64,000 nt of DNA from a virus. Shown here piece after piece: positions 8,101 through 63,671 of the stretch. Where the stretch lies: the IMG/VR virus record IMGVR_UViG_3300043772_001004, positions 38,736-102,735 of that record; one strand, 5' to 3'. How positions within the stretch are numbered: position 1 is the first letter of the stretch; every line of letters starts with the position of its first letter. The notes under the pieces are model-generated. The model was not told the origin of the DNA, searched no databases, and saw only the letters and a program-made list of their open reading frames with translations. A program made the translations under genes and the position numbers.

Positions 8101-10351
8101 TCCAATTTAATGGAACTCTATATTGCATTGCTAATTGATCATTATATGGAATAAGTCTATCTAATTCACCAGCTGGTCTATCAGAAGAATGACTAATCTC
8201 ATGAACTAACATTTGTTTATTTCCAGGAAAAGATTGATGTATTGAAACATTACCTGTATTACTATCAGATATTCCCCATGGGGAAAAGCCATATAAATCC
8301 TCAATCAATTTTACATTAGGATTTGTTTTATCAAAATCAATATCTAGTGCTGGGATAGTTTGTATATTTTTTTTTCTTAAATCTTTTATTTCTTTAAAAA
8401 GTTTTTGAGCATCTGAATCTGTTCTAGTTGATAATTTTGATGATTTCATAAGCATTTTATCATGCATTGGAGAATCATGCCATTTATTTATCCAGGATAA
8501 TGCTTTAGAAAAATCTGAACCTAATGGACTAACACTTACTTCTGGTTCAATTTGCATGTTTGTTGCAACATCTGGATTTTCTAATAAGTATTGTGGATCA
8601 AGAGGTGCAAGTTTTCTATCAACTGGAACACAAGTTTCTCCATTCCAATAGTGATATGGTGGACATTCCTCTTGTAAATTTTCTCCACCATCAAAAAATT
8701 TAGATAATCCTCCATACTTAAATGCTCTACCTTCTGCTTGTTTTTTCTTTGATTGCTCATACTGTTCAAGCCAAGTATCTAAATTTTTATCATACTCCTC
8801 ATATTCTTTTTTATACTTCTGTTGATTCATTAAATCTCTTAAAGAAGCTGCTCCTCTAAATTCCATTTCAGAGCCAGTTGCATTGCCATAGTCTAATTCT
8901 CCAGGAACAAAGTTACCTTCTTCATCTTCATAACCTTCAAAATAATTTTTATCATAGCCTGTAGCTTTCTGTACTATTCTAGGAATTAACCTTGTTTTGT
9001 TTCTTTTACCTAGAGCAACATGTCCTTTACTATCTAATACACCTTTATCAAATAAAGCAGCAATTTTATTTTGTGGCAACTTAACATCTAGACTTAATCT
9101 ATCAGCTGTGTATGGATCTAATGTATATTGTGGAGCTTCAATAGAATCTGGAAGAGAATAGTCATGTACCTGTAATTCTCCTAGATCTTTATTTTCTAAT
9201 AAAGGAGGATCAATGATTGGTAATTCTATTGGTTCTACTTTTATATCCTCATAGATTGGATTTATAGTTTTAACATACTCACATTTTTTTCCAGTAACAG
9301 GAACTGTTTCTTCATCTGTCCCAACTAATTTTTTTCCAGAAGGTGCTTTCTTCGGTACATTATTTATAATAGTTGTTTTTGGTACACAAGGTTTAGGAGG
9401 GTTTTGAGATATTACAGGTTTTATAGGCTTTTTGTATTTAAATACTCTCCATGGTTGATTTCCTTGATAATGTGTAAATACTTTAACAGGACTAATATTT
9501 TGATAAGGATTTCCTGGCAATGCCCATGATCCAAATCCCTGATTCCTACCTTGAAATTTACTTATTGCTGCAGATGGTATTTTATATTGTGGATTTTTTA
9601 AAACATTCATGAATTGATTATATGAATTATATAATGCTAAACTATCATTATATGCTTGCATACGTTCTTTATGAGAAAGACCATTTTGTGCTTTGATCAA
9701 CTCTCCACCATCTGCATAATACTTTGCATTAGGATCAAAGATTTTATTTTTTCTTGATTTAGGTTTAGAGAATAATGGATTTTGTGCAAAGAACTTATTG
9801 GTAGCTTCAAGGCTTCTAGAGTATGCTTTTGAGTTTTTCTTATTAGGAATTTTAGGTCTCTTAGCAGAACCTCCCTTTTTAAAATTATCTGGACTTTCTA
9901 AGTCTTTAATATTATGATTATAATAGTTAGATGTTAGTTCTTCTCCAGGATTTATATTTCTTTTAGCTAACATCAATATATGATCTCCATTATCTACTTC
10001 ATATATATTTGGACTTTCACTATGATTGTAATAACCTCCTAGTTCTACAGATGGAAATGGTGCTTGATATTGCTCCCCATTTTTTGTAAAACTTTTTCTA
10101 ATATGAGAAACACCTATGACATCATCTTTAGCAATTGGCTCTTGACTAAATATACCTTTACCTTGTATTTTAGATGGGCCAACACTTAATGATTTAAATA
10201 CAGGAGCATTGACACCATTCTCAGCACTTATTACATTATCACTTTTTTTACTACCAGTTGTGTTGTTTGTATAAGCTTTGTTATACTTAGTAGCTGGTTT
10301 AGATTTATTTAAATTTCTAATTGCGTCTATTATTACTTTCTTATTGTACAT
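5126..10351 (-). CDS. Giant polyprotein with SET domain and HExxH peptidase-like domain
   Basis: This 1741-residue protein has several modules separated by GG motifs. Residues about 52-147 form a recognisable SET domain: GKGIFSQEPIAKDDVIGVSH, then the NHS core in GGYYNHSESPN, then NPGEELTSNYY; SET domains usually methylate lysines using SAM. GG motifs follow at 160, 215, 547 and 555. A second module has HEISH at 717-721 with a candidate third ligand in GSEVRSRLRE near 804, as in gluzincin-like metallopeptidases. Residues about 900-1230 are Gly/aromatic-rich with alternating beta pattern, resembling a barrel or pore. A Cys-rich CPEGYERPCPKCRC sits near 1296-1309, followed by GG sites at 1335, 1353 and 1370. 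The C-terminus ends in an acidic helix, DLSKEELERLGYKLEEV. It overlaps both giant neighbours by one base and is probably injected with the DNA. Domain roles are inferred from motifs. Confidence 0.8.
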   Translation of the reverse strand: MYNKKVIIDAIRNLNKSKPATKYNKAYTNNTTGSKKSDNVISAENGVNAPVFKSLSVGPSKIQGKGIFSQEPIAKDDVIGVSHIRKSFTKNGEQYQAPFPSVELGGYYNHSESPNIYEVDNGDHILMLAKRNINPGEELTSNYYNHNIKDLESPDNFKKGGSAKRPKIPNKKNSKAYSRSLEATNKFFAQNPLFSKPKSRKNKIFDPNAKYYADGGELIKAQNGLSHKERMQAYNDSLALYNSYNQFMNVLKNPQYKIPSAAISKFQGRNQGFGSWALPGNPYQNISPVKVFTHYQGNQPWRVFKYKKPIKPVISQNPPKPCVPKTTIINNVPKKAPSGKKLVGTDEETVPVTGKKCEYVKTINPIYEDIKVEPIELPIIDPPLLENKDLGELQVHDYSLPDSIEAPQYTLDPYTADRLSLDVKLPQNKIAALFDKGVLDSKGHVALGKRNKTRLIPRIVQKATGYDKNYFEGYEDEEGNFVPGELDYGNATGSEMEFRGAASLRDLMNQQKYKKEYEEYDKNLDTWLEQYEQSKKKQAEGRAFKYGGLSKFFDGGENLQEECPPYHYWNGETCVPVDRKLAPLDPQYLLENPDVATNMQIEPEVSVSPLGSDFSKALSWINKWHDSPMHDKMLMKSSKLSTRTDSDAQKLFKEIKDLRKKNIQTIPALDIDFDKTNPNVKLIEDLYGFSPWGISDSNTGNVSIHQSFPGNKQMLVHEISHSSDRPAGELDRLIPYNDQLAMQYRVPLNWKNSQYGKDEMAWYKNSQSKLEDEYMGEEEIPRDIYEQNKFDDWNNYLLSNKGSEVRSRLREIQFGADEQNIYDPFNKKITGRQFKQLDKKLLYSKPLNELRKTYSDKDIKWMLNNISKNDNETDDTIQYSKNGGAKKKDLPKASFGLPGTGKDRSLTFTPFDYRSAYGQASDFNRNPNYSLTYTTPNLFKKADLSANPLSFTLGRPYNTDAQSLTNRTLNFVPQEGLFSSYYDPALGGENNPKYQQYLQDVSNYTGTPVSELNQTIINQYNAAKNLAGAKPLYKKGIPLTANVGWDVFGNAFGDSSSGPFTGYGSLNVGYAPEPGFYGTADLGLMGVFGRRKNNAKISPQRYFDKGLTRQGDMAFIPKLNVLNFALRQRPEYNDIQTQNILNAYANDIEQGTKTAQGVINKTDEPRYDISFLSPEGTVQIKPFKDFPGVASFTGGLRLDYGGKDTMGDNIPITLKPYGNVRYTVPIEGAIDKLKDLNLPAIKRKKTYNDYAYDQDYDEEYTGDTPQEDTPTENNFEVNPPELQVNPNGTILGRGDCPEGYERPCPKCRCQKLKQPAVYTDKRGKHLFDNMSFKDGGSIELTLSKKDIDKYVKGGYIVEDISVPTLTRKEGGWPPKSGSGLIKIAEKVPGLIDKLPTGWEKNIKKFTRSNYNPFSLLAKEIGYDIASQSHRAGRYDTDIINAIKGSEKYPASYFGTGVMHGQTVPEHIRQLYGEGKRDLNRNYFFGDETGFEPTFYDFESDAGLQQAIDWYGPLKAYELFSEIKGGEDLSIKSLLANIPDESKTSGPLVDLMQGYKNDNLLTSDEFKTFYDPTTGKLKLVDASPYSPSEFEGLIKDNLNYLFDQYGQETIPFQVNANTTKEGELPFGFHLRRNPINPYDDIQGHMNFLKRLSKDKFSTVARDLWGFNRKAYMDKYSYEKNLSPWMVDAMDAFGKPMVLTQENPIIFKQYGGAFEYEVGDEIELDDLSKEELERLGYKLEEVK

Positions 10352-13300
10352 TACCTAAATGAATTTAAAGTTTTGTAATTGCTGAATTTCAATATCATGT
10401 TTATGTCATTACATTGATTTCTTTTTAAATTTAAGAAATTTAAGTAATGTCTGAATTTTTTTCTTTGTAATTCAGATTTATTATAATCCATGTTATTTGG
10501 ATTTAATATTCTAGTGTATCCATCTGCTGCTGTTACCCAAGTATTTTCTGAAGCATAGTTACCTTGAAGTATAGTAGTTCCTGGAATTAAAGGTCCAGTA
10601 GGAGGATAGTTAGAATTAATTGGAAACTCATCTCTATCTCTTGTTATATCCCAAAACTGATTGAATCTATATTTCTGTTCTTCTTTAGCAAATAGAATAT
10701 CATAAGATGATAAGTTAGCACCTAACTTAGGATACTGTAATGATAGTATAACATCATTCTTTGGATATAGATTTAGATTTAAATATCCGGAAACTTGTTC
10801 TGTATTATAAACAACAGCAGTATCAAAATTATAATCTAACACATGATGCTGGTCTATACAACTTCCTGAGTTTCTTCTATAACATTCCAATGCATACTCT
10901 ACTGATCTTGTAGTCATTACTGCCTGACCTGTTACAATTGGGAATTCAATCTCCCAACCAAACTGTTGACCATAGAAGTTACAGAAGTCATCACAGATAT
11001 AATTATGTTTCCAGAAACCATTTTCCTTAGTACTTAAAAATATATCTTTTGTTGGTAATAATAAATCTGGATGCCAGTCATGGAAACTGATCCAGAATTT
11101 AGATTTAGGATCAAAGCTTAATGTCCAAGATGCATTTTCAAATAAGAATGGGTCACCTAATAAAAATCTAGAGTTTTGATTATTATCTAAAATAAAAGCA
11201 TCACCTGTACCATCAGGATTTATTGGAATATATTCTACTCTTCCTTTATATAGATCTTTTAATTTATAATCTTTCTTAGCAAAGTATAAAATGTTACTAG
11301 AGCTGTCATATGTTGATTGACATCCAATTCCTGCAACAGGATTATCCTGCCAAGGATAGCTAGGGAAATCTTCTGTTAATTGATATGGCATATATAAAAT
11401 AAACCACCACTTTAATCCTGCCTGAGATATTTCTTCTAGTCCTTGACCAAATGTAAATACTCGTCCTTGGTTTTGAGACATATAGTATATACCCAATGGA
11501 GTTGATATAACAGATAGTCTGTTTTGTGATGAACCATATTCATATGCCTTATCTGCATTAGATACAGATTGTTGTGGCTGAGAAAATAATCCACCATCCC
11601 CAATAGTAATCTTAGTATTTAAATCTGTCTCAAGTGTATCTACACCTTGATACATTAAAGGACTTTCATTTTTAAATGTAATGAATATACCTGATTTGTT
11701 AATTGACTTAACTCCAGAGATTTGCCCTTTAAATTCTTTATAGTTATTTATAAGGTATATTGACCAGCTATCTTTTATTGCTTCATCTTGCTGAGGCAAT
11801 GAATAAATAATCCTATCCGGTAAGTATGTATAACATAACTTAGATACTGCAGGATTATAGTATCTTGATTGTATGCTACCTGCTGAAAAATACTGGTTGT
11901 AAAGTTTTGACACACTCAATGAGTAATCATATATGTACTCACTAAGTTTACCCATTATTGCTGGGTTCATGTCAAACATAGCAATATAATCTGTGTATCT
12001 ATATGGATCATAATGCTTACCACCTTCTGCTATACTTTGTTTTCTAAAATCTACAAGTACATCTGATTCTACAAAGAAATCTCTGATGCCAGAATTTGCT
12101 AAATAGAAGTATGCATTTCTTACAGAAAATAAACCTTCATACTTACCCACACCTTGTGTAGTGTCTGTTGCATAATCATAATATCTATTTGAATTAACAT
12201 AATAATCCATATTATAAAATGCAGTTGGCACAGGTCCTGTACCAGGAACAGAAGGTCCACTGATGTTTATTAATTCTGATAGATATCCAACATCATAATT
12301 TATACTGTTTACTTTAAATCTTGCATTTGGAATCATAGAATATAAATAGTAGTTATATTCAAAACCATCTGGCTGATCATATAACCAATTGTAAAAGAAC
12401 ATCATGTTGTTCTTCTCAGTGTATCTATTTATATATGTATCTCCCCCAAATACAATTGGTGTTCTTTGTATAGTTTTAAACTGATATGTTATTTGGTCTA
12501 TTGGACATGTCCATGGAATAGGTTGTAAGTTATAATCAGATAATTTTTGTTCACAAGAAGTTACAGCAATTTGATATTCACTACCTAGTTGACCATATTG
12601 ATTTCTAACTCTGTATTTTAATGCTCCATAATGACTTGCAATAGGTAAACTAAAAGATGTATCAAAGTTTTCAAAAGTTGGTAGGGTAGAGTTAATAAAT
12701 GCTGAATCAGAAGAATTTTGTACAACAGTTCCTAATGTAACTAATGATTTATCTCTTATACCTGTAGTAATTAAATTAGGGCCAATGCTTACTCCATCAG
12801 GATATGCTAAATTGTAATAAGGTCCAGATTTAGTACGAACAGTTATTATATCTGATCTTTTTAAATTATTAATTACATAACTAAAATACTGACCAAACTG
12901 ATTTTGATACTTAGGAACATTTTGCAAATTATCTCTAACGTAAAAATTATCTTCAATTGAAAATCTTTTTAACTCAGACTGACCAATTTTTATCATGTTA
13001 CCATAATACCCATGTGCAACAGACTGAAGTGCATATTGTCTATATGGTGTTATAGCATAAAATATTCTTAGTGTTGCTTCCGCACCTTCTGAAAAATAAT
13101 ATGAAATTTGATTTAATCCTCCAATTGCTCTAGTAATTGGATCAAGATAAGCATAGCTTGGCATTTCTACTAAACCTTGTTGAACAATTGGTGTTAATCC
13201 TGTAGCTCCACTTGTAGCATTTAGTGTGTTTATAAATAAATTTTGAGCTTGAGCATAAGATGTATCAGGGTAACCATTTGGACCAATAGGACCTGGATTA

Positions 13301-15834
13301 ATCATAATTAATGCATCAAGAAAAGCATTACCACTTGAATAATAGTTGTCTAAAAAGTTTTGATAGATACTTACAGGAGAAGTTGCTGGTGTTGGTAGTG
13401 TAGTTAGTGCTGTAAGTGCTGCAATTTGAGATGCATCGGTATTTCCAGAAATTAATCTTTGTAAGGTAGCATTTAAATCTGGTTGATTAATTGTTCTCTT
13501 ACCTAATAAAGATACTAAAGCTTCAGCTACTCCAACTACTATCATAGCAGCAACTACAGCATCACTTAACAATTTAAATTGTGGATGGTCACTAGGATTT
13601 TGAAAATTTAAATCTGCATAACCATTTAATGTTCCATATAACTTAAACTCAGATGTTGATAGATATGGTGATCTAAACATTGTATCTGGTGAATGAAATG
13701 TAAAAATATCTGTAGGTATAGTTTGATTGTAAAGTACAGTTACCGGAGGAATAATTTCTTCATTTTTAATATATGGATCATTATATAAAAAATTATGATC
13801 TGATGGGTTTAAAGAAGCTCCTATTGGAACAATTGTATTAAATGGGTAATTTGCATAGAGCCCGGTTTTATTTTGTGCAAGTGCACTTTTATTTTCATAG
13901 CTTCTAAAATTATTAACCATCCCTTTGGCAATAATTGTTTTATTACCTTCTCTAGATCCTCTTAAAATTTCATAACCAACAATACCTGGAATATCATTAC
14001 CATCTTGATCCTTTGGCAATATAATATTTTCAAATACTACTCCCATAATTCTTATGTAGAATTCATCCCCTGAAGTAGTACTGTTTGGATTTGGTCTAAA
14101 GTGCACAGCATCTGTAGATGCATTGTTATTAATAAAATTTTCTGGGAATCTATGATGCCTAATATTTTTACCACATAGATCAAAAGCACCTTCAGTTTGT
14201 CCAACTTGCACTTGTGCTGCAGGACCAGTCCAACAATAATAACTAGAATTCCATATGTCAGGTCTTTTTTCTGGATATGTTTCATCTGATTGCCAATATC
14301 CCATTTCTCCAATAGCAAGTAAAGTACCTCCATCTGGTAATACCCATTGACCATTTACAAGTGTTGCTCCCGGAAGAGTTGCTGGGTATAACAATTGTGT
14401 TGCTGTATTATATACTTCAAATACACTGTCATCTGTTGCTAATGCATTTTGATCATGAGTTACTAAAAAATTATCTGCCTCATTCATTACTATTCCACCA
14501 GGTATTTGAAAGTTCCTAGGAGCTCTTCCTGGAATATGATAAGAAGCAGATTTATCTCCAGTGTCATATACCCATCTTATGTAAAAGGTATATACTTCAT
14601 CTCTAAGATAATTTGTTTTATTGCCACCCTTTATATAATAATCAGCTGGATATTCAACACTAGCCCATCTTGCTTGAATCATATTTGCAAGTGGTTGATA
14701 ATTAAAATCAAATCTAGATCTTGGACCAACTCTTAAAAGATAATTATTTACATCTGTCATTTGATCAGATGTTTCATATACTGGAGTTGTAATAGGTAAT
14801 TGCTCTAATGGAATTTTTACAAGACTAGGGTTAATTAAATCTAATTCTATTCTAGAAGTTTTAGTTGAGTAAAATCCAATTTGATAACCTACTGTTTGTT
14901 GATTTACAGTAGCAACAAGAACTAAAACAAACTCATCAAAGTTTTCAGAATCTGCATCTACAGTTAATGTTAATGAACCTTCTATATCTCTAACATTATA
15001 AATAAATTGATTATTACTTTGTGAAAAGAAATCTGTAACTCTTTGACCTTTTATTGTATATGCTATTAGTGCAAAGTAAGTTCCATTAGATAATGTTCCA
15101 CCAGATTGTCCCAATGTTAAGTTAAGACATGGTGTTTCCATCAATCTAGCTAATCTTGTTTTTGGACAATCTAATCTATTAATATTATTACAAAATTCAC
15201 ATGGTGTTGCTGGTGTACATTTTTCTTCCCAATGAACTCCTGGCCATAAGAAAGTTGTATCAACTCCATTAGAATAATAATTCATTGTTGCTGATGTGCC
15301 ACCTAGCCATGAGTAATCTGGAGTTGGCCAAGTTCTAGGGTCACCAATATTTAAAAATCTATCAGGATTAAATCCATCAGCCCAGTATACTTGCCAAGAA
15401 CAATCTTCTTTTTCTCTTGATGATCCAGATATAAGATATCTTTTGTCAAAGTTTAAACAAGGGTCCTGAACTATCTCTCTATATTTACATACATCTTCTT
15501 CTAATAATCCTATTTCTGATGTAATTCTTTTACCTGTATTATCATGTCCTGCAGTAAAAACAACCCACTTGTCAGAATATAAATAAATAGCACCGATGAT
15601 ATATTTTTTAGTTACAGTAAGAGGCATTGATGTTCCTGTTGCTGAGCACAAGAAATTTGATGTCTCATTTGATAATGTTCCTATGTCACCTTCAATTGTA
15701 TTGTTTACAGCATTTACTGCATGCGTCCACATACCCTCTGACACAAATGAAGGGTCAGAGTCTTTATTTAAACCTTTAATAAAAGAGCTTGTGGTGACCT
15801 TACCAGTTTCTTGTAAACCTTGTTTCTTTGCCAT
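10351..15834 (-). CDS. Very large tail nozzle/muzzle-type protein
   Basis: The product is 1827 residues, rich in Tyr, Asn, Ser and Thr and predicted largely beta. Its N-terminus, SSFIKGLNKDSDPSFV followed by GDIGTLSNE, matches the style of crAss-like and T7 gp12-type tail tubular/nozzle proteins, which begin with an arm that captures the tail and then build propeller-like domains. No signal peptide or membrane helix is seen. It sits between two connector-like genes upstream and the giant cargo genes downstream, as expected for the distal tail barrel of a podovirus. The start is the ATG directly after the preceding gene, three bases from that gene's stop. A different identity, such as a baseplate or receptor hub, cannot be excluded. 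Confidence 0.75.
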   Translation of the reverse strand: MAKKQGLQETGKVTTSSFIKGLNKDSDPSFVSEGMWTHAVNAVNNTIEGDIGTLSNETSNFLCSATGTSMPLTVTKKYIIGAIYLYSDKWVVFTAGHDNTGKRITSEIGLLEEDVCKYREIVQDPCLNFDKRYLISGSSREKEDCSWQVYWADGFNPDRFLNIGDPRTWPTPDYSWLGGTSATMNYYSNGVDTTFLWPGVHWEEKCTPATPCEFCNNINRLDCPKTRLARLMETPCLNLTLGQSGGTLSNGTYFALIAYTIKGQRVTDFFSQSNNQFIYNVRDIEGSLTLTVDADSENFDEFVLVLVATVNQQTVGYQIGFYSTKTSRIELDLINPSLVKIPLEQLPITTPVYETSDQMTDVNNYLLRVGPRSRFDFNYQPLANMIQARWASVEYPADYYIKGGNKTNYLRDEVYTFYIRWVYDTGDKSASYHIPGRAPRNFQIPGGIVMNEADNFLVTHDQNALATDDSVFEVYNTATQLLYPATLPGATLVNGQWVLPDGGTLLAIGEMGYWQSDETYPEKRPDIWNSSYYCWTGPAAQVQVGQTEGAFDLCGKNIRHHRFPENFINNNASTDAVHFRPNPNSTTSGDEFYIRIMGVVFENIILPKDQDGNDIPGIVGYEILRGSREGNKTIIAKGMVNNFRSYENKSALAQNKTGLYANYPFNTIVPIGASLNPSDHNFLYNDPYIKNEEIIPPVTVLYNQTIPTDIFTFHSPDTMFRSPYLSTSEFKLYGTLNGYADLNFQNPSDHPQFKLLSDAVVAAMIVVGVAEALVSLLGKRTINQPDLNATLQRLISGNTDASQIAALTALTTLPTPATSPVSIYQNFLDNYYSSGNAFLDALIMINPGPIGPNGYPDTSYAQAQNLFINTLNATSGATGLTPIVQQGLVEMPSYAYLDPITRAIGGLNQISYYFSEGAEATLRIFYAITPYRQYALQSVAHGYYGNMIKIGQSELKRFSIEDNFYVRDNLQNVPKYQNQFGQYFSYVINNLKRSDIITVRTKSGPYYNLAYPDGVSIGPNLITTGIRDKSLVTLGTVVQNSSDSAFINSTLPTFENFDTSFSLPIASHYGALKYRVRNQYGQLGSEYQIAVTSCEQKLSDYNLQPIPWTCPIDQITYQFKTIQRTPIVFGGDTYINRYTEKNNMMFFYNWLYDQPDGFEYNYYLYSMIPNARFKVNSINYDVGYLSELINISGPSVPGTGPVPTAFYNMDYYVNSNRYYDYATDTTQGVGKYEGLFSVRNAYFYLANSGIRDFFVESDVLVDFRKQSIAEGGKHYDPYRYTDYIAMFDMNPAIMGKLSEYIYDYSLSVSKLYNQYFSAGSIQSRYYNPAVSKLCYTYLPDRIIYSLPQQDEAIKDSWSIYLINNYKEFKGQISGVKSINKSGIFITFKNESPLMYQGVDTLETDLNTKITIGDGGLFSQPQQSVSNADKAYEYGSSQNRLSVISTPLGIYYMSQNQGRVFTFGQGLEEISQAGLKWWFILYMPYQLTEDFPSYPWQDNPVAGIGCQSTYDSSSNILYFAKKDYKLKDLYKGRVEYIPINPDGTGDAFILDNNQNSRFLLGDPFLFENASWTLSFDPKSKFWISFHDWHPDLLLPTKDIFLSTKENGFWKHNYICDDFCNFYGQQFGWEIEFPIVTGQAVMTTRSVEYALECYRRNSGSCIDQHHVLDYNFDTAVVYNTEQVSGYLNLNLYPKNDVILSLQYPKLGANLSSYDILFAKEEQKYRFNQFWDITRDRDEFPINSNYPPTGPLIPGTTILQGNYASENTWVTAADGYTRILNPNNMDYNKSELQRKKFRHYLNFLNLKRNQCNDINMILKFSNYKTLNSFR

Positions 15835-59240: not shown

Positions 59241-59744
59241 ATGAAAATGTATAAAAAAATGGAAAAGTTAAAACAGGAAATTAGAAATTATCAGTTAAAT
59301 GCAGGTAAAACTTACATGCAATATGAATCAGATGGATACTCTCAGTATCAGAACTATTTGTATAAAAGAGCATTGTATGGTTTAAATGCATTGACACAAG
59401 AAGAGCTTGCTTCTATGTGTAGCAAGAAGAAACAAAGAATACTCAATGTTTATAAGCGTGCACAGAAAGTACTTAATGTATTTAAGCAACAAGTAACAAA
59501 TCAGTATAGTAACTATATCTTCAAAACTCTGTTCCCAAAGAGTCCATGGACTGATGATATGCTTGCATATTCAGAGGTAGATGAGAAGTTTACTAACACT
59601 CTAACTTTTAAAGATTTAAATATCTCTAAACAGGATATTATTGGTATCTTTATTACTGAAGGAATCCTTCCTAAAAACTTTTTAAGTTTAAAAGAAGCAC
59701 CAGTAACATTACCAAGATTAAAGCATGAAGTTAAAAGTATGTGA
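59241..59744 (+). CDS. Early helical protein
   Basis: 167 residues from ATG 59241 (MKMYKKMEKLKQEIRNYQLN); upstream in-frame starts lie in the terminator hairpin and are rejected. It is helical and basic (KAYLYKRALYGLNALTQEELASMCSKKKQ-type middle), then a small acidic C-terminal domain (YSEVDEKFTNTLTFKDLNISKQDIIGIFITEG). Its end overlaps the HNH gene start by 20 bases. The function is unknown. Confidence 0.6.
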   Translation: MKMYKKMEKLKQEIRNYQLNAGKTYMQYESDGYSQYQNYLYKRALYGLNALTQEELASMCSKKKQRILNVYKRAQKVLNVFKQQVTNQYSNYIFKTLFPKSPWTDDMLAYSEVDEKFTNTLTFKDLNISKQDIIGIFITEGILPKNFLSLKEAPVTLPRLKHEVKSM

Positions 59745-60129
59745 TGCCTGTCAAAAAGAGACAGTAATATGGAAGAACCATGGGGGATTTAAATACTGTA
59801 AATATTGTTGGAGTTGCCAAAAAGCCATTGATAGTGACAGTGTACAGAAACCAACTGACTATAAAATTCCCCAGGTTTCTTCTAAGCGGAAGAAGAAAGA
59901 CCAAGAGTATTTAAAACTAAGAAACAGATTTCTTACTGATTTCAGTCTATGTCAGATTGCAGTAAAAGGTTGTTCTGTTAATGCTACAGATGTACATCAT
60001 ACATATGCTGGTGCTAACAGAGATGCTTTTTACTTAGTACAATCTACATGGCTTGCAGTCTGTAGGAATTGCCATGATTGGGTGCACAGTCACCCAAAAG
60101 AGTCTAGAGCTCTTGGATATTTAAAATGA
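59725..60129 (+). CDS. HNH/treble-clef endonuclease-like protein
   Basis: 134 residues. Two Cys pairs begin it (CDACQK, YCKYCWSC), and the C-terminal domain TDVHHTYAGANRDAFYLVQS then TWLAVCRNCHDWVHSHP has HH at 91-92, CRNCH at 113-117 and H121/H123, typical of HNH/treble-clef folds such as phage NinG- or endonuclease VII-type nucleases. C76 and C83 may bind a second zinc. It probably cuts DNA during replication or recombination. Confidence 0.7.
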   Translation: MKLKVCDACQKETVIWKNHGGFKYCKYCWSCQKAIDSDSVQKPTDYKIPQVSSKRKKKDQEYLKLRNRFLTDFSLCQIAVKGCSVNATDVHHTYAGANRDAFYLVQSTWLAVCRNCHDWVHSHPKESRALGYLK

Positions 60130-60610: not shown

Positions 60611-61705
60611 ATGAACAGAGAAGAAATACAAGATGAAGCTTTAAAAGCTAGTGAGGGTAAACAAAGATGCACAATTGTACTTGGTACAGGTGTAGGTAAG
60701 ACTCTTGTTGGCTTAAAGCATATGGAGAAACATTATTCTCCATTACAAAGTATTCTGATTGTTGCTCCCAAACTGTCTATCATAAGCTCATGGAGATATG
60801 AGGCTGAGAAATTTGGATTAAGCAAAGTATTGGAAAATGCTAAGTTTACTACTTATCTTAGTTTAAACAAACATAATCCTGGTGAATATGATGCAGTTTA
60901 CTTTGATGAAGTTCACAGTTTATTAGATAGTCACAGATCTTTTCTTAATAATTATGCAGGTAGAGTACTGGGTTTAACCGGTACTCCACCTAAGCATAAA
61001 ACATCTGAGAAAGGTAGATTAGTATCTGAATATTGTCCAGTTGTCTATACTTTTAAGGCAGATGATGCAATAGAATCAGGTATTATTAATGATTATCAAA
61101 TAATTGTGCATGAGATTAATCTTGATACTGCAAAGAACTATAAAGTCTCAACAAAGAATGGTGGTTTTCTTACATCTGAGTTGCAAAACTATGGTTATTG
61201 GGGTACAAGGATTGATACAGCATCAGGGCAACCTCATATACTTAGAGTAATGAGAATGAAAGCTATGATGGAGTATCCAAGCAAAGAAAGATATGCAAAA
61301 GCTTTGTTAAACAGTATAACAAGCAAGTGTATTGTATTTGCTAATACTCAAGAACAAGCTGATAGAATGTGTACACATAGCTATCATAGTAATAATCAAG
61401 ATTCTGAAGAGAATCTGCTTGATTTTAAGAATGGTAAGATAAATAAACTTTCATGTGTGTTGCAATTAAATGAAGGTGTAAACATACCAGGTTTAAAACA
61501 AGGTATTATTATGCATGCATATGGTAATGAGCGTAAGGCTAGTCAAAGAATAGGAAGACTTTTGCGTTTAAATCCAGATGACAAAGCTATTGTGCACATA
61601 CTATGCTATGTAAATACAGTTGATGAGAAATGGGTTAAAGATGCTTTAGAAGACTTTGACCAGAGTAAAATAGTGTGGAGAAGTTATAGCCTACAACATA
61701 CATAA
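60611..61705 (+). CDS. Superfamily 2 helicase
   Basis: 364 residues with a full set of motifs: Walker A GTGVGKT (25-31), SILIVAPKLSIISSW (motif Ia area), DEVH (99-102), LTGTPP (122-127) and motif VI QRIGRLLR (312-319), with ANTQEQA and GVNIPG between. It is compact for a DEAD/DEAH or UvsW-type helicase. It is likely to unwind or remodel nucleic acid during replication or recombination. It opens the helicase-ClpS-DnaA-like gene run. Confidence 0.85.
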   Translation: MNREEIQDEALKASEGKQRCTIVLGTGVGKTLVGLKHMEKHYSPLQSILIVAPKLSIISSWRYEAEKFGLSKVLENAKFTTYLSLNKHNPGEYDAVYFDEVHSLLDSHRSFLNNYAGRVLGLTGTPPKHKTSEKGRLVSEYCPVVYTFKADDAIESGIINDYQIIVHEINLDTAKNYKVSTKNGGFLTSELQNYGYWGTRIDTASGQPHILRVMRMKAMMEYPSKERYAKALLNSITSKCIVFANTQEQADRMCTHSYHSNNQDSEENLLDFKNGKINKLSCVLQLNEGVNIPGLKQGIIMHAYGNERKASQRIGRLLRLNPDDKAIVHILCYVNTVDEKWVKDALEDFDQSKIVWRSYSLQHT

Positions 61706-61721
61706 TTCTTATATTTAATAT

Positions 61722-61976
61722 ATGGAAGATGTTAAGACACATAAACTTATTTTGCATAATGACAAGAAGAACACATTTACATATGTAATGGCTTGTCTCA
61801 TAAGATTTTGTGAGCACCATCCAACGCAGGCAGAGCAATGTGCTTTGCTTGCACATGAGATGGGTAAATGCACAGTAAAATCTGGTGACTTACTAGAAAT
61901 GCTTGAGATTTCAGAATCTTTGCGTAATTTAGAGCTTAAAACATCAGTAGAACAGTATGAGAGCAATATGCATTGA
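61722..61976 (+). CDS. clpS-like: ClpS-like N-degron adaptor with altered pocket
   Basis: 84 residues. HKLILHNDKKNTFTYVMACL, then HPTQAEQCALLAHEMGKCTV and LLEMLEISESLRNLELKTSV follow the full ClpS fold. The pocket residue N13 (E. coli N34) and H45 (H66) are kept, but the second Asp of the NDD motif (D36 in E. coli) is K15. In characterised ClpS proteins the Asn, that Asp and the His bind the alpha-amino group of N-degrons. The unusual Lys may change specificity or make it a decoy on ClpA/ClpC. It resembles Bacteroidota ClpS, suggesting host origin. It overlaps the next gene by 20 bases. Confidence 0.85.
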   Translation: MEDVKTHKLILHNDKKNTFTYVMACLIRFCEHHPTQAEQCALLAHEMGKCTVKSGDLLEMLEISESLRNLELKTSVEQYESNMH

Positions 61977-62232
61977 TGCTTCAAATAGACCAAGTAAAGT
62001 GCCTGAGAATGAGTGGGTTGTAGAAGGTGAAGTTTATACTATCACTAGAATTGTTAGAATGGGATTGCAGGATAATAAATTTGGCGTTCTATTAAAGGAA
62101 GTTAAGCTATCAGCTGAATCTTTTCCTTATGAACTATATGATGCAGAAAGATTCTTACCACTTGATTTATTATCACAAGCATTCACAGAAACTAAAGAAA
62201 CAGTAAAAGAAGCTGACTTAGAACTAATTTAA
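61957..62232 (+). CDS. Conserved small phage protein, unknown
   Basis: 91 residues. The opening AICIDASNRPSKVPENEWVVEGEVYTITR and AESFPYELYDAERFLPL match a small family found in many Bacteroidota phages ('a.cI....rP..ip...Wv..G..Yti......FpYe..da.RF'). It probably has a small beta fold; the function is unknown. It is coupled to ClpS by overlap. Confidence 0.65.
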   Translation: MRAICIDASNRPSKVPENEWVVEGEVYTITRIVRMGLQDNKFGVLLKEVKLSAESFPYELYDAERFLPLDLLSQAFTETKETVKEADLELI

Positions 62233-62236
62233 ATTT

Positions 62237-62692
62237 ATGGTAGAAGATTTATATGAACTTAACAAAGTTGTAAATCAAGATATAGTTGAGATTATTGATA
62301 AATATCAACTAAATACAAAAAGTAGAAAAAGAGAAAAAGCTTACATGAGATACTATCTCTATGATGTTTTAAAAAAGAGGAGATTTCTTACACATGCAAT
62401 GATTGGTATGTTTTTTAACCGTGATCATTCATCAGTAACTCTTGGTCTTCAAGAACATGAGTATTGGTGGAAGCATAAAGATATTGACTATTTAAAAGCT
62501 ATTCAACCTATAGTAGATATTATTGATATGAGAAAAACTGATTTGGGTTTATTTGGTATTAAAACAAACTACATTGATGTTGAAGAATCTCAGATAGTAA
62601 TCACTGGTAACTTTAATCTTAATCTACTTGACAAACTTCCTGAAAAAATGACCAAAGAAGAATTATTGAATGTCTTTAAAATAATAAACTAA
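62237..62692 (+). CDS. DnaA-domain-IV-like DNA-binding protein
   Basis: 151 residues. The segment REKAYMRYYLYDVLKKRRFL, then THAMIGMFFNRDHSSVTLGL and QEHEYW matches the DNA-binding domain IV of DnaA ('..iG..F.rDHstV.h....'), without the AAA+ part. It may bind DnaA-box-like sites to regulate replication or compete with host DnaA. Its C-terminal 60 residues are unrelated. It lies four bases after the preceding gene and runs into the next. Confidence 0.7.
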   Translation: MVEDLYELNKVVNQDIVEIIDKYQLNTKSRKREKAYMRYYLYDVLKKRRFLTHAMIGMFFNRDHSSVTLGLQEHEYWWKHKDIDYLKAIQPIVDIIDMRKTDLGLFGIKTNYIDVEESQIVITGNFNLNLLDKLPEKMTKEELLNVFKIIN

Positions 62693-62922
62693 TGGGAAGA
62701 ATGAAAGAAGCATACATTCAAATAATGAATGAGAATGGCGGTATACCAGAAGACATGACTCTTGGAGACATGTTAAGAATGAAAGAATTAAACATTTATC
62801 ATTGGCAAGAGTATGAAAGAGCGCAAGAAAGAGCCAGACTACAATCTAATAAACAAACAGATTTGGGAGAGGCTGCAAAAGATTCTGAAGGAGAGCCCAT
62901 CAGAAGAGAAGAAAACAATTAA
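62692..62922 (+). CDS. Small charged helical protein
   Basis: 76 residues, MGRMKEAYIQIMNENGGIPE, then TLGDMLRMKELNIYHWQEYERAQERARLQSNK and an acidic tail. It overlaps the DnaA-like gene by one base. No family is recognised. Confidence 0.55.
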   Translation: MGRMKEAYIQIMNENGGIPEDMTLGDMLRMKELNIYHWQEYERAQERARLQSNKQTDLGEAAKDSEGEPIRREENN

Positions 62923-62934
62923 AAAACCAAAAAA

Positions 62935-63195
62935 ATGAAAAAATTATTGTTAGCATTTATTTTAGTTAGTGCTGTATTAACTTCTTGTAATAAAGAGAAG
63001 TTCTGTAAAAATTCTACTTGCGGAACTATTGTAAATGATGAGATAACATTTGATGCTGCAGGTAATGCGTGTTATTCTCTATCAGTTAAAAATAAGTGTT
63101 CAGATAATGTAAAAACATTTTGTTTTGATTATAGCACTTGGTTTGATGGAAATATTGGAGAGGAGTTTTGTGTAGAAGGGACAACCCCTTGGTAA
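62935..63195 (+). CDS. Lipoprotein
   Basis: 86 residues. A signal peptide (KKLLLAFILVSAVL) ends in LTSC, the lipobox, and the mature protein has eight cysteines (CNKEKFCKNSTCG, CYSLSVKNKCSD, FCFDY, EFCVEG). The Cys spacing suggests disulfides. It probably sits on the host outer membrane and may block superinfection. It begins the envelope gene cluster. Confidence 0.65.
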   Translation: MKKLLLAFILVSAVLTSCNKEKFCKNSTCGTIVNDEITFDAAGNACYSLSVKNKCSDNVKTFCFDYSTWFDGNIGEEFCVEGTTPW

Positions 63196-63224: not shown

Positions 63225-63671
63225 ATGAAAAGTTTATTATTAGGTTTATTATTAGTGGTATCAGGAACATGCATGTCACAGGTTAAAATAGAAGTTAAAG
63301 AGAAGTCATATTTATACTTATTAACCACAACATATGAGATAATACCTTCAAGTGATGGTACTACTACTTATTATCAAAAAATATTTCTGACAGGATATGA
63401 ATATCCTACAATACGGGAAGGATTTTATATAAATAGTATTTTTACAGATATAAATGGATTAGTAAAACATTATACTGAACTTGTTAATCTTGAAAATTTG
63501 GAAGATGGGGAGTATAACTTATCTGCTCGTGTTAGGGGTGGCATACATGCAATTAAAACAGGTAGTAAAATTAAATTAAAAGACGGCTATAATATCTATA
63601 ATTATGGAAAATATAAGATAGAAGATATCAAGACTGACCTAGCTTTATTAAAATCAATGTCAGGATTATAG
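63225..63671 (+). CDS. Secreted protein
   Basis: 148 residues with a signal peptide (KSLLLGLLLVVSGTCMSQ) and a likely cleavage site near MSQ-V. The mature part is beta-rich (VKIEVKEKSYLYLLTTTYEIIPSSDG). It probably folds in the periplasm. It shares the 'AAAAAATCAAAAAAATG' leader style with the lipoprotein before it. No family is recognised. Confidence 0.6.
   Translation: MKSLLLGLLLVVSGTCMSQVKIEVKEKSYLYLLTTTYEIIPSSDGTTTYYQKIFLTGYEYPTIREGFYINSIFTDINGLVKHYTELVNLENLEDGEYNLSARVRGGIHAIKTGSKIKLKDGYNIYNYGKYKIEDIKTDLALLKSMSGL

Follow-up and report, generated by a model that had tools for sequence, protein, structure and literature searches.

The clpS locus and its neighbours

The stretch of DNA analysed here (the window, 64,000 nucleotides) corresponds to bases 38736-102735 of a 102,735-base virus record. 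The virus is crAss-like (Crassvirales), since the Crassvirus muzzle protein is encoded at 10351-15834 (Pfam crAss_MUZ, E=5.8e-30), and portal, terminase large subunit and major head PHROGs are matched in the record. Together with the Bacteroidota-like sequence of its ClpS, this type of virus indicates that the host is probably a member of the Bacteroidota. The genes that define the locus, in window coordinates, are:

60611-61705 (+), DEAD/ResIII-type helicase, the constant upstream neighbour (Pfam ResIII E=2.7e-12, Helicase_C E=1.3e-09)
61722-61976 (+), phage clpS gene, 84 aa
61957-62232 (+), 91-aa ORF, the constant downstream neighbour, overlapping the end of clpS by 20 bases (no Pfam or PHROG match)
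62692-62922 (+), 76-aa ORF, a conserved third neighbour two genes past the 91-aa ORF (no Pfam or PHROG match)

The clpS gene is a stable, syntenic part of these crAss-like genomes. The helicase adjoins it in 103 of 103 testable loci, the 91-aa ORF in 119 of 119, and the 76-aa ORF is retained in 116 of 118, some contigs occurring twice in these counts. A HNH endonuclease-like protein (59725-60129, +; PHROG 2323, E=1.9e-09) occurs in 75 of 85 testable relatives. The 151-aa protein at 62237-62692 (+), which shows a weak, below cut-off match to the DnaA C-terminal helix-turn-helix (Pfam E=6.6e-4), is limited to 35 of the 119 related loci; its place in L201 and L042 is taken by an ORF of comparable length that looks unrelated. 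The clpS block is followed by two small proteins with signal-peptide-like starts (62935-63195 and 63225-63671, both +), the first of them lipoprotein-like (MKKLLLAFILVSAVLTSC); similar small secreted-looking ORFs occupy this position in L201 and L042.

Searches for Clp partners gave matches to both Clp_N and ClpP in the four Bacteroidota genomes searched alongside, and to neither in the 102.7-kb phage record; as the record may be incomplete, the phage is only probably without a Clp partner of its own.

Identity of the protein

The ORF runs from ATG to TGA and its 84-residue product is MEDVKTHKLILHNDKKNTFTYVMACLIRFCEHHPTQAEQCALLAHEMGKCTVKSGDLLEMLEISESLRNLELKTSVEQYESNMH. Its N-terminus is fixed by an in-frame TAA at 61716-61718, one codon 5' of the ATG. 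Relatives keep the reading frame at low dN/dS (0.05-0.16 in most pairs of the clade formed by the window and L007-L011, with one outlier of 0.34), which marks it as a real gene and not a chance ORF; on these ratios it is under purifying selection. Minus-strand ORFs over the gene (61715-61993 and 61635-61856) are unsupported. The last ClpS residues, YESNMH (61955-61976), overlap the start of the next ORF, and their conservation may be a product of that overlap.

ClpS is the bacterial adaptor that passes proteins bearing particular first amino acids to a protease. The core of the phage protein matches the Pfam ClpS profile PF02617 (E=3.7e-13; score 49.5 bits, cut-off 23), while the NCBIfam ClpS equivalogs give weak matches under their cut-offs, and PHROGs offer no useful family (best E=0.018; none at 0.01). 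The AlphaFold2 model (mean pLDDT 89.3) has the strand and helix order of ClpS, and in a Foldseek search of the PDB hits 1-23 are all ClpS, the best coming from Mycolicibacterium, E. coli, Caulobacter, Arabidopsis and Agrobacterium (top E=8.6e-07, rmsd 0.9). By its core, therefore, the protein is a member of the ClpS family. It has the QAEQCA core in common with 80 Bacteroidota loci. An earlier note on this DNA had described a phage ClpS of Bacteroidota style, and both parts of that description agree with these results. Five parts of the protein are considered below (E. coli residue numbers are used for alignment sites throughout):

61722-61742 (+), residual N-terminus MEDVKTH, where hosts have an N-terminal extension; 12 residues precede N34
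61758-61766 (+), N13-D14-K15 (E. coli N34-D35-D36), the alpha-amino-binding motif with Lys in third place (translation; column statistics)
61767-61781 (+), pocket rim K16-N17-T18-F19-T20 (E. coli 37-41), with gatekeeper F19 and the acidic site 41 lost (column statistics)
61854-61856 (+), H45 (E. coli H66), the invariant pocket histidine (column and tree statistics)
61890-61928 (+), helix alpha3, residues 57-69, with a hydrophobic face of L58, L61 and I63 (secondary structure; host and phage columns)

The N-degron pocket and the lysine at site 36

In Caulobacter ClpS, Asn47, Asp49 and His79 (E. coli 34, 36 and 66) touch the alpha-amino group of the N-degron (PMC12493166). N13-D14-K15 and H45 of the phage protein fall, without gaps, on E. 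coli N34-D35-D36 and H66, so the earlier reading of the NDD motif as NDK, with the histidine kept and K15 equivalent to E. coli D36 and Caulobacter D49, is correct. The substitution reverses the charge at a position in contact with the N-degron in model ClpS proteins. An identical NDK motif is present in six further viral contigs (L006-L011).

Site 36 is variable in the phage family. Among 58 distinct phage relatives it is D in 43, K in 6, N in 4, S in 3, and E and H in one each; P occurs in one further, distorted member (L205). Of the six Lys sequences, five form the window clade and the sixth (L195) stands apart. On the ClpS tree at least 11 changes at this site are needed among the phages, compared with a mean of 6.2 over all sites (rank 14 of 70) and with none at sites 34, 35 and 66; on the tree of the neighbouring helicase it likewise needs 11 changes, with at least two origins of Lys. 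The same substitution recurs in other phage ClpS proteins within this family; the jumbo phages Atu_ph07, Paride and Kaldavass have other residues there (see below). Hosts vary too: 80 Bacteroidota loci have D in 70, E in 7, N in 2 and H in 1, and a second survey, made with a DNA pattern, gave 58 ClpS genes among 292 Bacteroidota genomes, with D in 45, E in 12 and H in 1. Lys was found in 0 of the 80 loci and 0 of the 58 genes, two samples that may overlap. Three matches to an NDK pattern in 296 Bacteroidota genomes are not ClpS: the first two lie within glycosyltransferase-like and PAS/histidine-kinase-like proteins, and the third has an in-frame TGA in the matched sequence. Asp at site 36, absent from the window protein, does not define the ClpS family, because hosts can have E, N or H there and M. 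tuberculosis ClpS has Pro (PMC6274998). Its loss is neither rare nor limited to the window phage.

The remainder of the pocket is constant. No change at N34, D35, A62, H66 or G69 occurs in any of the 58 distinct phage or 80 host sequences, and the Lys members are no exception at N34, D35 and H66. This bears directly on the earlier proposal of a decoy that occupies ClpA/ClpC, taken here to mean that Lys15 abolishes N-degron binding and leaves the protein only that action. A charge clash is indeed expected beside the alpha-amino group, and in E. coli ClpS the triple substitution D35A/D36A/H66A lowers substrate binding substantially (PMC9810338). A dead pocket, however, would let N34, D35 and H66 drift; moreover, most family members keep the Asp, natural ClpS proteins with Pro or Asn at site 36 exist, and crystals of M. 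smegmatis ClpS have been grown with PheAla and TrpSer. A pocket killed by Lys15 is therefore very unlikely, and with A62 also invariant and site 36 taking D, K, N, S, E, H or P, neither the decoy nor the idea of Lys15 as a singular switch is supported. If the idea of a Clp decoy is kept, the missing N-terminal extension (below), a feature of the whole phage family, would be a better reason for it than Lys15.

Charge of the pocket rim

In E. coli ClpS, D36 and E41 lie on either side of the pocket, and their proposed role is to repel acidic residues at P2-P5 of the substrate (PMC12258705). The corresponding residues in the window protein are K15 and T20. Site 41 is D or E in 75 of 80 hosts and in 58 of 58 genes of the second survey, against mostly L, A, Q, G or T in the phages. 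Most hosts are acidic at 36 and 41 alike. Summed over sites 36, 37 and 41, the rim carries a charge of -2 in 71 of 80 hosts and of 0 or -1 in most phages. In the window clade the sum is +2, and Glu at site 67 (E46, beside the pocket histidine) partly counters this basic rim. Lys15 is one of several independent rim changes, together with K16 and T20, that turn an acidic rim into a basic one. With such a rim the bias against acidic P2-P5 residues is predicted to be relaxed or reversed, and overall binding possibly weakened. That the substitution could change specificity, as the earlier note suggested, is accordingly the part of its proposal that remains plausible, in the form of an altered preference for the residues after the first one. 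With its repeated losses of Asp36, the site forms a natural set of variants (D, E, N, S, H, K, P) in which to ask how the pocket rim sets specificity.

The view that Lys15 is neutral or nearly so, a residue without functional meaning at a tolerant rim position, draws on the same variability: site 36 is in the faster-changing fifth of all sites, and hosts vary there as well. Against it, neither host sample contains Lys, the substitution is accompanied by loss of the acid at site 41 and by Lys at site 37, so that the rim charge is reversed, and the gene is under purifying selection; we give neutrality the least credence.

The missing N-terminal extension

Canonical delivery adaptors have a disordered N-terminal extension (NTE) of about 20-25 residues. 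It is absent from the window protein. Phage relatives have 11-12 residues ahead of N34 (one distorted member aside), and in host loci the nearest upstream Met is at least 24 residues before it. In some relatives an in-frame stretch lies upstream (LKLFGKILIFHYISS), and it was rejected as an extension: it has no ATG and overlaps the helicase end in another frame, and in other members, including most of the Lys clade, similar stretches meet a stop within one to five codons.

The NTE of E. coli ClpS enters the ClpA channel, where it is bound by pore loops and pulled, so that ClpS is remodelled and the substrate passed on; delivery is inhibited when the NTE is prevented from entering (PMC9663308). 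ClpS with a truncated NTE is no longer degraded by ClpAP in vivo (PMC12974527). A phage family with the pocket and without the tail has the look of a binder or competitor, not of an adaptor for delivery. The missing tail, and not Lys15, is the main argument for interference, because it is true of Asp and Lys members alike. What appears to be new here is that the extension of the characterised delivery adaptors has been lost while the core was kept. The evidence that the NTE is required comes from E. coli ClpAP, and Bacteroidota ClpC may differ.

An alternative is that the protein is a working delivery adaptor of shifted specificity, bringing chosen host or phage proteins, perhaps ones acidic after the first residue, to host ClpCP without a long extension. 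The invariant pocket residues fit this, as does the change of rim charge, which gives a plausible shift in specificity, and delivery to host ClpAP has been proposed for jumbo-phage ClpS (PMC7824862). Yet the family has no NTE, whose pulling is needed for delivery in E. coli (PMC9663308), and some other phage ClpS proteins (Phosso, Paride and three ~640-kb phages) do keep a host-like N-terminal length. Delivery is thus conceivable, though on balance unlikely.

Helix alpha3 and possible docking on ClpA/ClpC

Helix alpha3 of E. coli ClpS binds the ClpA N-domain through Glu79, Glu82 and Lys84 (PMC12493166). These residues align with L58, L61 and I63 of the window protein; hosts also lack Glu82 and Lys84. 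Columns 79, 82 and 84 are L/M, L/F and I/L in phages, unlike in hosts, where they are mixed and often charged (charged or polar at 79 and 82, which in phages are mostly L/M and L/F). Column 45 is invariant Ala in phages, again unlike hosts. Docking on host ClpC is not assured, because the phage helix differs from those of both E. coli and hosts: either the Bacteroidota ClpC contact differs or the phage protein has another partner.

An explanation built on the second possibility is that the ClpS fold was recruited for a new partner, with no usual ClpC docking, the pocket and the new hydrophobic helix face serving to bind or shield the N-terminus of a phage or host protein. The hydrophobic columns 79, 82 and 84, the invariant Ala at column 45 and the constant neighbours of no known family speak for it. 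The pocket and the core columns common with hosts are nevertheless unchanged, and the loss of Glu82 and Lys84 says little, since Bacteroidota hosts are also without them; we regard a wholly new partner as rather improbable.

Origin of the phage gene

In a ClpS tree built on few columns, all the phage sequences group together in a single clade (100/100), separate from hosts and from three ~640-kb phages. The simplest history compatible with it would be one acquisition from a host in the Bacteroidota, after which the extension was lost; the tree does not name the donor. In one contig (3300031963_008088, L009/L129) ClpS belongs to the Lys clade of the window and the helicase to the other main clade, a mismatch that suggests recombination between phages at or near clpS.

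Proposed role in infection

Since neither a Clp ATPase nor ClpP was found in the record, the phage ClpS must act on N-degron proteins and/or on the host Clp machine. The reading we favour, though tentatively, is that of a core-only ClpS that binds N-degrons and competes with or retunes the host ClpS. The pocket for a bulky first amino acid is kept, through N13, D14, H45 and the hydrophobic lining. The tail is absent by which the pore of ClpA takes hold of ClpS and opens it so that the substrate moves on. The most likely action of such a protein would be competitive: it is predicted to bind N-degron proteins, and perhaps the N-domain of ClpC or ClpA, without efficient hand-off; docking, competition and the shift in specificity are likewise predictions. 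Host N-degron degradation might then be damped or redirected during infection, and the tail-less phage protein should itself evade degradation by ClpAP. A bolder form, which we consider unlikely, is that in a large group of crAss-like phages ClpS has become a natural, degradation-resistant anti-N-degron factor, which holds N-degron proteins or the Clp ATPase without hand-over, and whose fast-evolving rim (Asp to Lys, Asn or Ser) tracks which N-termini are shielded or withheld.

The N-degron pathway is conserved from bacteria to humans, and to our knowledge its natural modulators in phages are almost unstudied. A ClpS with the pocket and without the delivery tail is the natural counterpart of a laboratory mutant, and would show what phages gain from acting on this pathway.

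Comparison with known ClpS proteins

The nearest known proteins are those of Bacteroidota (for example L103, from Flavobacterium luminosum, L047 and L049), which have the QAEQCA core, N34, D35, A62, H66 and G69 in common with the phage protein; the best host matches are 41-59% identical over the aligned part. They differ at the N-terminus and rim (at least 24 residues before N34 and a rim charge of -2, compared with 12 residues and +2), and in the tail after G69, which has 36-37 residues in the phages and mostly 29-31 in hosts (about 5-8 longer). The ClpS proteins of E. coli (1MBU, 2WA8, 3O2B) and Caulobacter (3DNJ) have the same fold and N34, D35 and H66. Relative to E. coli, D36 is replaced by Lys, the gatekeeper Met40 by Phe and E41 by Thr, the NTE is absent, and the alpha3 contacts Glu79, Glu82 and Lys84 are not kept. 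The best Foldseek match is M. smegmatis ClpS (9AYO/9B1P, rmsd 0.9), of which crystal structures with PheAla and TrpSer are among the PDB hits; it has no Lys at site 36. In M. tuberculosis ClpS, Asp replaces Asn34, unlike in the window protein.

Phage-borne ClpS also occurs in jumbo phages, lineages different from the crAss-like family: Atu_ph07, Paride/PA5oct, Vibrio phage 2.275, Erwinia Kaldavass, Sinorhizobium Phosso and the uncultured ~640-kb phages LR756504, LR745206 and LR756502. That ClpS-type proteins in phages are rarely discussed, as the earlier note put it, is fair, but they are not new to the literature: jumbo-phage ClpS proteins have been described, with the conjecture that they deliver targets to host ClpAP (PMC7824862; see also PMC6102473). 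A literature search, with most subscription journals outside it, found no paper linking ClpS with crAss-like phages. In Vibrio phage 2.275 (L220/L224) and Paride (L005) clpS lies near a gene for ribosomal protein S21, and in the Vibrio phage near IF-3 too. Site 36 is Q in Atu_ph07, N in Paride and P in Kaldavass, compared with K in the window. H66 is changed in Atu_ph07 (Glu) and Vibrio phage 2.275 (Asp), and in no crAss-like member. Most jumbo-phage ClpS proteins keep the N-terminal stretch, with a host-like length in Phosso, Paride and the three ~640-kb phages, while that of Vibrio phage 2.275 also has 12 residues before N34, a shortening that is apparently independent of the one in the crAss-like family.
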